From Mesobacillus sp. AQ2 (GTDB lineage Bacteria > Bacillota > Bacilli > Bacillales > Cytobacillaceae), in NCBI RefSeq assembly GCF_030122805.1, contig NZ_CP126080.1:3663001-3727000 (forward strand): 64,000 bases of DNA, written 5' to 3'. The first letter of the stretch is position 1. Each line of letters opens with the position of its first letter. Shown piece after piece: positions 58,820 through 63,468 of the stretch. The notes under the pieces are model-generated. The model was given only the letters and a program-made list of their open reading frames with translations, was not told the DNA's origin and did no database searches. Position numbers and translations under genes: made by a program.

Positions 58820-59347
58820 CTACATTAACTGCATGGTCGTGATGCAGGTCGCATCGTTTTCAAAAGTGGATATTTCTGATTCAACACTTTTACCGTCATA
58901 TCCAATCTTTGTTTTGTACTTTTTATCACGCGGAAGCCATAAATCGATGAAGCCGTTCGGCTGGGACATCATCTTCTCGTCAACAACTACGTTTCCGTCC
59001 TCATCCTCAATATATACATCAAACTCTTTTTCAACCAATTCACCTTGACAACCTGTCAAGCTATGATTCGTTCAAGGATGGGTTTGATTTTCATAAGGTG
59101 CGATTGAGACGAAGAAGTCTTCTTCTGAGATGTCATAGACTTGCTTGTCCCCTTCACTGTCAGCAATCGTCAACTCATGTGAGGTGATGGATGCCTTGTG
59201 GTCCTTGTTTTTGCCCGCGCTGTAATCACTCACCAATTCCTTGATGTTTTGTTGTTGTTTTTCAGGTTCAGCAGATTTTTCTCCGCCATTGCAGGCAGTT
59301 AACAGTCCTGCAGCCAAAAACGCCATTCCTAGAATTTTAAATTTCAA
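58820..59347 (-). CDS. CueP-family lipoprotein with in-frame UGA (candidate selenoprotein)
   Basis: 175 codons from a TTG at 59345-59347 (6-7 nt after AAGGGGGTGA) to the TAA at 58820, with a UGA at codon 92 (59072-59074). The signal peptide ends in lipobox LLTAC (Cys19). The C-terminal half is clearly CueP (GFIDLWLPRD, ATCITTMQL), a copper-resistance protein of the cell envelope. Residue 92 (UGA), Cys100 and Cys168 have spacings 8 and 68, the same as Cys96, Cys104 and Cys172 of Salmonella CueP as I recall them. Downstream codons are intact and in the same frame. Either UGA is read as selenocysteine (SECIS-like hairpin follows) or the gene carries one nonsense mutation. The downstream part has no ribosome site of its own. 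Confidence 0.75.
59044..59074 (-). promoter_or_regulatory. Candidate SECIS element in the CueP-like gene
   Basis: After the UGA (59072-59074) come 11 nt, then CTTGACA (59054-59060), loop GGT (59051-59053), TGTCAAG (59044-59050): a perfect 7-bp stem with a GGU loop. The GGU begins 18 nt after the UGA, the same distance as in E. coli fdhF, where the apical GGU is contacted by SelB. Confidence 0.55.
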
Positions 59348-59377
59348 CCCATTCACCCCCTTATCTTTCAAAGTATG

Positions 59378-59411: not shown

Positions 59412-59451
59412 CAAAATATGCATTTTTTATCGAGAAAAAATGCATATTTTG
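59412..59451. repeat. 17-bp perfect A/T-rich inverted repeat upstream of the CueP-like gene
   Basis: CAAAATATGCATTTTTT, 6-nt spacer, AAAAAATGCATATTTTG. It lies between the CueP-like gene and the MFS terminator. It could be an operator for the CueP-like gene or a second terminator for the MFS gene. Confidence 0.7.
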
Positions 59452-59465
59452 TGACTGATTAGAAA

Positions 59466-59497
59466 GGGAGCTGGACCCCCTTCGGCCCAGCTCCCTG
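59466..59497. terminator. Terminator of the MFS gene
   Basis: GGGAGCTGG / CCAGCTCCC, 9-bp stem with further GC pairs inside; T-rich on both sides. Confidence 0.8.
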
Positions 59498-61517: not shown

Positions 61518-62951
61518 CTATTTTTTTGGAGCTGGCTGTTGGGCCGGGAAGTAACTGTTGATTGCTTTGTCTTTCTTCTTGAAGTTATCTTTTTCGTCGT
61601 AAACAGCCTTCTTCACCTTTTCAATCTCTGTCTTGACCTCTTCTAAATTGACGCCTTTTTTGGTCAATTCTTCGATGGCAATATTGATGGCTGCGTTTGA
61701 TTCTTCAGTCGAAATCCTCAATGAATCCATTGATCCCTGCGGATTATGGAAACCAGCCGAACTTTCAGCCGCTACGATATCCCAGAACCATTGTCCTTTT
61801 CTGATATGCTCCTGAGCCTGCTTTATTTTTTCTTCGCTTACTCCTGATGTGATCATCTTATTCACGTAATAGTGTGAGGTAATCGAAATATCCTCGGCCT
61901 TATGAAGGGCTTCCATATGAGTATCCTGAATACCGATTACGCGTTCTTTCAGCTCATCCATATCCCTGTTGGTATGGCAGGTTGCGCAGGATTGATCCAT
62001 TGTCTTCAGAGGCGATGTCCACCAGTGTGAACTGATTTTCTTTTTGCCGTCTACTCTGTCATATGGCATGTGACAGTCTGCACATGTGACTCCAGCCTCG
62101 CCATGCGGACCTTCGATATGTGTCTCAAAGTCAGGGTGCTGGGATTTCAGCATTGGCGTTCCGGAAATATTGTGAACCCAGTCTTTCTCAAAACCTTGTT
62201 CCTTGGCAGTTGTCTCATAGTATTCATACATATCTTCAGGCTTGAATCCATTCGCCCAAGGATAGGTAACTTCACTATTGTCAGCTGCAAAGTAGTACTC
62301 TACGTGGCACTGTCCGCAAACATAGTTCCTCATGTCATTCTTTGTTGGGTTGGACATGTCGATGCCCTGTGATTCCATTGCCTTGATGAAGCTTGGGCGT
62401 GTGACGCGCAAATCCATCGTCTGCGGATCATGGCAGTCTGAACAGCCGATTGGTGAATGGCCCATTGCTTCTGCTTTCGGCCAGATGTCTTTGTTAAAAT
62501 TGCCGCTCCAGTAATCGTCACCCATTTCCTCGATCATGTGCGGTACGGCAGTCGATTTACATGTCAAGCAGGAACCGACCGACTTGTCAGTGATCCTCGC
62601 GATCGCCCGGACGTCCTCATTCGCGTAAATATGGCCGCGATCTTCATTGTATTCAGTCGCAAAGCCATAGCCGTTAAAAAGGACTGGCAAATACGGTTCC
62701 TTGTCATGGTCGAATTTGCTTCGTTTCACGGAACCGCTGTATTTTGTGTCTTCCATCTTTTCGTTTTGTTTGTAGCTGTCATATTGAAGCGGGAAAAGAT
62801 CCTTGAAGGCTTCATTGCTGATTTCATCTTTGCTAAGCCCCGTTTTTAGCTCACTGGCTGAAGTGGCTTCTTCATCCGAGCTGGAGCAGCCTGTAATGAT
62901 GAGCATGACAGCCACAAGGAGCAAATATGCCCAGCGGAAATTTCTAGCCAT
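61518..62951 (-). CDS. nrfA: Cytochrome c nitrite reductase catalytic subunit
   Basis: 477 residues, lipoprotein (lipobox IITGC at about residue 22). Five haem sites: the catalytic CLTCK with a lysine ligand, then CSDCH, CGQCH, CADCH and CATCH. Reduces nitrite to ammonium with six electrons on the outer face of the membrane. Overlaps nrfH by 8 bp; AAGGAGGT precedes its ATG within the nrfH end. Confidence 0.97.
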   Translation of the reverse strand: MARNFRWAYLLLVAVMLIITGCSSSDEEATSASELKTGLSKDEISNEAFKDLFPLQYDSYKQNEKMEDTKYSGSVKRSKFDHDKEPYLPVLFNGYGFATEYNEDRGHIYANEDVRAIARITDKSVGSCLTCKSTAVPHMIEEMGDDYWSGNFNKDIWPKAEAMGHSPIGCSDCHDPQTMDLRVTRPSFIKAMESQGIDMSNPTKNDMRNYVCGQCHVEYYFAADNSEVTYPWANGFKPEDMYEYYETTAKEQGFEKDWVHNISGTPMLKSQHPDFETHIEGPHGEAGVTCADCHMPYDRVDGKKKISSHWWTSPLKTMDQSCATCHTNRDMDELKERVIGIQDTHMEALHKAEDISITSHYYVNKMITSGVSEEKIKQAQEHIRKGQWFWDIVAAESSAGFHNPQGSMDSLRISTEESNAAINIAIEELTKKGVNLEEVKTEIEKVKKAVYDEKDNFKKKDKAINSYFPAQQPAPKK

Positions 62952-63468
62952 TGTTCATCGTACCTCCTTTTTTCTCTAAAAGCTCGCCTGGTTTAGGCGG
63001 TTTAAAATAATCCTCTGTCTTGAAGCCTTTTCCATGCGGCACTGCCTGGTGGCAGCTTGAACAGCTGTCTTTAGCATCATGCGAAATATTTTCCAGTGTA
63101 TTTTCATGGCAGCTGATACAGTTTTCATTTATGACTTCGTCAGAGCTTTCTGTTGCGTGGAGCACCTTCGGTATTTTTGCTTCCCCTAGTGTATTGAAAT
63201 ACACATGTGTCATGCCAGCCTTTGCCTTATAGGTATATTTTTTGACCATATTCTCGTGTGGCAAATGGCAGTCCCCGCAGGCCAGACCGGCGTGGTTGGA
63301 ATCGGAAAACGAGTCATGGACCTCTGTCATGATATGGCAGCTTGAACAGAATTCAGGTGAATCCGTATAAGCGAGTGTCTTGACAGTGACGACCGAAACA
63401 ATGATTCCAGCGAACACACCAATGAATAACAGCATCTTTTTGTCTATTCCCAGCAGCTTTTTCAGCAT
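62944..63468 (-). CDS. nrfH: NrfH, membrane tetrahaem quinol dehydrogenase
   Basis: 174 residues with one N-terminal membrane segment (about 13-33) and four CxxCH motifs (CSSCH, CGDCH, CISCH, CSSCH). NapC/NirT family; it takes electrons from menaquinol and hands them to NrfA. GGGAGGTG precedes the ATG. Confidence 0.95.
   Translation of the reverse strand: MLKKLLGIDKKMLLFIGVFAGIIVSVVTVKTLAYTDSPEFCSSCHIMTEVHDSFSDSNHAGLACGDCHLPHENMVKKYTYKAKAGMTHVYFNTLGEAKIPKVLHATESSDEVINENCISCHENTLENISHDAKDSCSSCHQAVPHGKGFKTEDYFKPPKPGELLEKKGGTMNNG

Follow-up and report, generated by a model that had tools for sequence, protein, structure and literature searches.

The copper protein CueP has been described in Salmonella. 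In the parts of two sources that deal with it (PMC13201067, PMC7558416), it is a periplasmic protein that binds copper and supplies superoxide dismutase with it; copper protection is lost in the variant C104S. Prokaryotic selenoproteins were reviewed in 2026 (PMC13188914); Table 1 of this review contains 119 families or subfamilies, and CueP is not among them. Here we consider the cueP gene of Mesobacillus sp. AQ2, whose genome is one closed contig of 4.80 Mb. The locus was read in a 64-kb stretch of this contig (NZ_CP126080.1, positions 3,663,001 to 3,727,000 of the forward strand), below called the window. The gene contains an in-frame UGA codon. Its product is predicted to bind copper at the cell surface and, as judged from sequence comparison, appears to carry selenium instead of sulfur at a conserved site, both in Mesobacillus and in related bacilli.

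The cueP gene (positions 59347-58820, minus strand) is a single frame of 176 codons from a TTG start to a TAG stop, encoding a predicted lipoprotein of 175 residues. The sole interruption is the TGA at 59074-59072, read here as selenocysteine (Sec) 92. A first reading of the window, made from the sequence only, had noted two open reading frames (ORFs), 59072-59371 and 58820-59059, lying in one frame and separated by this TGA and four sense codons. It had also claimed that together they make one CueP, that everything downstream of the UGA is intact, and that the other two conserved cysteines follow at distances of 8 and a further 68 residues. All this is borne out. The TGA is the only stop inside the frame. 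The read-through product, with Sec entered as Cys for both the family models and the structure prediction, scores 150.5 bits with PF21172 (curated cut-off 27) and 188.7 bits with NF038094, the model of the wider CueP family (cut-off 60).

The TGA is aligned with the cysteine of the THPC motif in Salmonella CueP (PDB entry 4gqz). In an alignment of 32 rows, H90, position 92, H95, C100 and C168 are invariant, with UGA replacing the first cysteine. The codon of Cys100 (59048..59050, minus) was placed by the alignments with 4gqz and with the 32 rows, and that of Cys168 (58844..58846, minus) by the sequence and the latter alignment. By alignment and numbering, we take C100 to be Cys104 of the Salmonella protein; the other two conserved cysteines are presumably Cys96 and Cys172 there. 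An AlphaFold model built from the 32-row alignment has a mean predicted local distance difference test score (pLDDT) of 81. The only PDB entry matching it with E below 0.001 is 4gqz (8e-15); the next one has 1.7e-3.

The TGA form is retained in relatives, as the first reading had proposed to check. CueP with TGA was found in 21 out of 21 genomes of the genus (the copy in genome G001 is also frameshifted) and, among 12 relatives on named contigs, in all eight close ones. The remaining four have cysteine codons, TGT in the Paenibacillus and Citrobacter records and TGC in two Vibrio records. The closest named kin of the window protein is in a record labelled Cytobacillus oceanisediminis (98% identity), and the M. 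boroniphilus and M. selenatarsenatis records have 91% and 87%, respectively. TGT or TGC does stand at the site in some relatives, most of whose genomes lack selA. A record titled Chryseobacterium sp. ISL-80 (L012) contains a cueP gene 92% identical to that of the window and shares Mesobacillus neighbour genes; it is probably mislabelled.

In the bacterial family, 104 of 193 genomes contain CueP: 87 have the TGA form, 16 have cysteine only, and one (G138) has lost the site. An even draw of 398 genomes from the class yielded 55 CueP matches. Removal of three from the bacterial family and one below the cut-off leaves 51, four of which, belonging to four genera of two other families, have TGA at the site. 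Two further genomes with CueP above the cut-off were found among 398 from the phylum, both with cysteine. Altogether, the TGA form occurs in 91 genomes of 14 genera, and a cysteine codon was read directly in 50 genomes. Neither TAA nor TAG was seen at this codon across the surveyed genomes. Four loci in which the motif could not be used (L149/G076, L150/G138, L185/G879, L191/G520) are left out of the codon survey; the last two are below the CueP cut-off, and L149/G076 has the TGA and the hairpin described below. Several genomes have more than one gene: G065 holds both forms, G182 has three separate TGA-form genes (L205, L206, L207), and G027 and G097 have two TGA-form copies each. CueP was also found in 22 plasmid records, all with less than 60% identity. 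The best quick tree, constructed without identical proteins and without four rows whose downstream part is short, implies 13 changes between Sec and Cys, only two of them forced by starred branches.

Immediately downstream of the UGA there is a hairpin resembling a bacterial selenocysteine insertion sequence (SECIS), at 59044..59060 on the minus strand. The arms of the stem are 59060-59054 and 59050-59044, and the loop is GGU (59053-59051). The perfect 7-bp stem and the GGU loop had been placed 18 nt after the UGA. This is correct for the loop; the stem itself begins after 11 nt. For bacterial SECIS elements, the review (PMC13188914) gives a loop of 3-9 nt, a stem of 4-16 bp, G in the first two loop positions, a spacing of 16-37 nt and a minimum free energy (MFE) of at most -7.5 kcal/mol. 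The corresponding values in the window are 3 nt, 7 bp, GGU, 18 nt and -12.2 kcal/mol on 45 nt, all within these limits.

Conservation of the hairpin was counted without identical sequences and without rows shorter than 96 nt after the codon; G001, which is frameshifted, and record L018 are thereby left out. All 7 bp of the stem are present in 89 of 90 distinct TGA genes and in two of 53 distinct Cys genes; the loop codon is GGT in all 90 and in 17, respectively. The lowest-energy fold of 42 nt contains all seven pairs in 86/90 TGA genes and 1/53 Cys genes. Synonymous shuffling according to the codon usage of these genes (1000 rounds) produced stem and loop in 0.7 of 90 genes on average and in five at most. 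In the TGA forms, synonymous variation is almost absent from codons 4 to 9 past the UGA, whereas in the Cys forms these codons vary freely. When the 3' arm is slid by 1 to 3 nt, the fraction of paired cells drops from 99.8% to 14%-57%. Pair 16-24 is A-U in 85 TGA genes, G-U in three and G-C in two; pair 13-27 is U-A in 87, C-G in two and C-A in one. Thus the variation in the stem is mostly compensated, A-U being changed to G-C in two genes and U-A to C-G in two. The hairpin is kept beyond the needs of the protein, with a few compensatory changes. The two Cys genes with the whole hairpin are those of G026 and G184, and both genomes have selA. The latter is a near twin of the TGA gene of G183: 20 of 435 nt differ, the codon being TGT in G184, and both have the whole hairpin. 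Such a pattern would be expected if Sec and Cys had been exchanged recently.

Selenocysteine genes were sought in the source genome, and selA, selB, selD and tRNA-Sec are all present. The scores are 567.6 bits for selA, 361.7 bits for selB and 56.1 bits (Rfam) for tRNA-Sec, also called as tRNA-SeC by ARAGORN. The selD gene adjoins selA (L023:11408-12460; TIGR00476, 403.5 bits) and has a UGA of its own in the motif AGUGCKISPEDL; a hairpin of 7 bp with GUU as its loop is predicted there too. One TGA, within the motif RTUHAPSVAG, is also contained in the gene of a formate dehydrogenase alpha subunit that scores above its family cut-off (L214, G000:C1:2864274-2866295, minus strand). It is followed by a predicted hairpin in which GGU occupies nt 19-21 past the UGA, an offset identical to that in cueP. 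In fdhF of E. coli, GGU is at this offset as well. A second formate dehydrogenase match, below the cut-off, also has one internal TGA (L218, G000:C1:4683046-4683798, minus strand); it was not caught by the motif pattern that found the UGA site of the former.

The TGA form and the selenocysteine machinery occur together. A selA gene scores above the cut-off in 89 of the 91 TGA genomes, and the remaining two, G179 (81% complete) and G183 (80% complete), have weak selA matches and tRNA-Sec. Out of 65 CueP genomes without TGA, 10 have selA and 55 do not; the cysteine codon was read in 50 of these 65, and 15, from the class, were classified by stop count alone. A search for tRNA-Sec in 39 chosen genomes found it in 28, including all 17 with TGA, and in none of eight genomes of the bacterial family with Cys-form CueP and no selA. 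Two tRNA-Sec matches above the cut-off were seen in each of G071 and G100. In one locus (L210, G024:C10:79074-89448), tRNA-Sec lies approximately 0.8 kb downstream of a Cys-form cueP gene and is followed by an ORF that resembles, by eye, an integrase.

The region downstream of the UGA is under selection. Among 20 genomes of the genus (190 pairs), the median ratio of nonsynonymous to synonymous substitution rates (dN/dS) is 0.068 for the part after the hairpin, and for the 60 codons before the UGA the ratio is 0.143. The former value indicates that the half after the UGA is translated and needed. The frame stays open for 83, 84 or 88 residues past the UGA in 109 of 113 TGA rows; the other four rows come from G001 and record L018, are frameshifted and probably represent one genome.

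Taken together, the conservation of the UGA, its co-occurrence with the selenocysteine machinery, the conservation of the hairpin and the selected downstream half suggest, with a probability of about 0.94, that selenocysteine is inserted into a CueP-family protein at this UGA. This figure is for the insertion itself and does not extend to a role of the selenium as a copper ligand. It had been stated beforehand that a genome lacking selenocysteine genes, close relatives with TGT or TGC and no conserved hairpin, or a sequencing error at the TGA would speak against such a reading; the outcomes favoured selenocysteine.

Other explanations of the interrupted frame fare poorly. A nonsense mutation, a pseudogene or a sequencing error has a negligible probability. 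Decay does occur in this family, as illustrated by the frameshifted copies in G001 and G076 and by G457, a genome without selA, whose Cys-form gene (L190, G457:C4:109646-111227) has a frameshift and a TGA at the last conserved cysteine and looks like a decaying gene. However, a sequencing error is excluded by the recurrence of this TGA in 91 genomes, and a recent nonsense mutation does not fit the dN/dS of 0.068 after the TGA, nor does the open frame past the UGA in 109/113 rows agree with a pseudogene. Relaxed constraint downstream of the TGA was seen in no further genome. It is hardly more probable that translation truly ends at the UGA and starts anew, for the second ORF, from the TTG at 59059. 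Both halves are open, and this TTG is situated 12 nt after the UGA. On the other hand, the second half would lack the first cysteine, and the TTG encodes the leucine of the conserved HSLTGC, there being no conserved start with its own ribosome-binding site. Further, it is only in TGA forms that codons 4 to 9 are fixed in the SECIS hairpin pattern, and the TGA form tracks selA and tRNA-Sec. Decoding of the UGA as another residue, for instance as tryptophan or by near-cognate suppression, is just as improbable. It has nothing in its favour beyond the open frame; the UGA is always opposite the cysteine of relatives, and the hairpin and the co-occurrence with the machinery would be without reason. 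All three explanations were rejected.

A number of observations weigh against the selenocysteine reading. The association of TGA with selA (Fisher p 4e-29) was computed without correction for kinship, and the independent-pairs test on well-supported branches has one pair for Sec versus selA and two for Sec versus hairpin, and thus no power. The window fold by itself is only moderately unusual (-12.2 kcal/mol on 45 nt, z -2.69, 3 of 200 shuffles equally good). The limit of -7.5 kcal/mol is exceeded on 42 nt in 8/113 TGA rows, and the TGA gene of G339 has only six of the seven stem pairs. As said above, two genomes, G001 and G076, have frameshifted TGA copies; the copy in G138 is truncated and the site is missing. 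Finally, NF038095, a narrower model of the Salmonella-type metallochaperone, gives 146.3 bits, below its cut-off of 195, and so the window protein is placed in the wider CueP family only.

If selenocysteine is inserted, the hairpin just after the UGA would guide SelB, which would deliver Sec-tRNA, so that selenocysteine would be placed at residue 92, the first conserved cysteine of the metal site. The protein would then be exported, lipidated and anchored outside the membrane, with Sec92 acting together with Cys100, Cys168 and the invariant His90 and His95. When selenium is absent, the ribosome would stop at the UGA, leaving a short N-terminal piece.

A selenolate is acidic and a strong ligand of Cu(I). 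From the Cys-form relatives of the window protein we infer that it binds copper. It is somewhat more probable than not, by analogy, that the selenolate of Sec92 serves as a ligand of Cu(I) and that a readily reduced Se-S bond is an additional feature; binding of Cu(I) by the selenolate is preferred because the ligand set is the same as in Salmonella CueP. Tentatively, and with a little less assurance, Sec92 with Cys100, Cys168 and the histidines may bind Cu(I) directly outside the Gram-positive cell, making the protein a selenium-dependent copper buffer or chaperone. The main alternative, of lower probability, is that selenocysteine serves mainly redox reactions, such as the reduction of peroxides or disulfides via a Se-S bond, and not copper binding. 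The reference list of PMC13201067 includes a paper that, by its title, concerns direct scavenging of reactive oxygen species by Salmonella CueP. However, the excerpt from PMC13201067 has CueP binding copper and its C104S variant losing copper protection; the set of cysteines and histidines is retained in the window protein, and the predicted fold is that of CueP rather than thioredoxin.

The likely start of the gene, TTG at 59347, is 5 nt downstream of the ribosome-binding site AAGGGGGTGA (59353..59362, minus strand), read from the sequence; both are nearly identical in G003, a genome of the same genus. A lipobox, LTAC, was seen by eye, with the codon of Cys19, the predicted lipid anchor, at 59291..59293 (minus strand). 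When the upstream halves of TGA-form genes are compared, 92 of the 93 distinct ones fit a loose lipobox pattern. Upstream of cueP there is a palindrome with 20-nt arms and no spacer (59412-59451), which lies outside the coverage of the relative in a three-row alignment. A terminator-like repeat (59465-59496) adjoins the gene that precedes cueP.

The gene neighbourhood was considered in 24 loci, namely, the window, three records of the genus and, from 18 genomes, 20 regions each about 10 kb long. In two loci, L198 and L201, the pattern applied did not detect CueP, leaving 22. Most of the gene groups occurring in at least three loci are confined to one genus (the four loci from Mesobacillus; three from genus g22). 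ORFs that resemble metal P-type ATPases by eye lie within about 5 kb of cueP in three of 22 loci (L202, L207, L208). Two ORFs at 61518-63468 of the window are similar to the NrfA/NrfH pair of the ammonia-forming cytochrome c nitrite reductase, both scoring below the NCBI cut-offs (327.2 bits versus 595 and 122.7 versus 134.2, respectively).

The exchange of Cys for Sec had been proposed as new for the CueP family, and within the literature searched it is. A full-text search for CueP together with selenoprotein, which does not extend to supplements, had a single match, concerning hydroxyapatites. A protein search gave 1269 matches, of which the best 120 have 55 to 66% identity, whereas the DNA of the genus encodes CueP proteins 84 to 98% identical to that of the window; thus the best matches listed do not include the TGA form of the genus at full length. 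Gene finders take this codon as a stop, which makes it easy to miss the protein as a whole. Both the CueP family and selenoproteins as a kind are already known; their combination seems to be new as far as the searches reach. It would add a selenoprotein family that ordinary gene calling splits in two. If the reading is true, selenium is tied to copper at the bacterial surface, and if the selenolate forms the copper site, the copper handling of these bacilli would hinge on the supply of selenium. The natural near twins of G183 and G184 make the effect of selenium on metal binding versus redox directly testable.

Compared with Salmonella CueP (4gqz, PF21172, NF038094), the window protein passes the family cut-offs, has the same fold in the predicted model and shares the pattern and spacing of cysteines and histidines. 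It differs in having UGA for the first conserved cysteine, in being a predicted lipoprotein of a Gram-positive bacterium and in scoring under the NF038095 cut-off. The UGA-containing formate dehydrogenase of the same genome is similar in its UGA and in the hairpin beyond it, with GGU again at nt 19-21, but it is an unrelated protein and its stem has another sequence. Finally, Table 1 of PMC13188914 includes metal-linked selenoproteins, namely, the CopZ-family (2Fe-2S) copper chaperone, MbdU, the SO_0444 family Cu/Zn efflux transporter and a putative mercuric transport protein. Compared by name in that table, they are alike in having predicted selenocysteine in proteins tied to metals; they belong to other families, and none of them is CueP.
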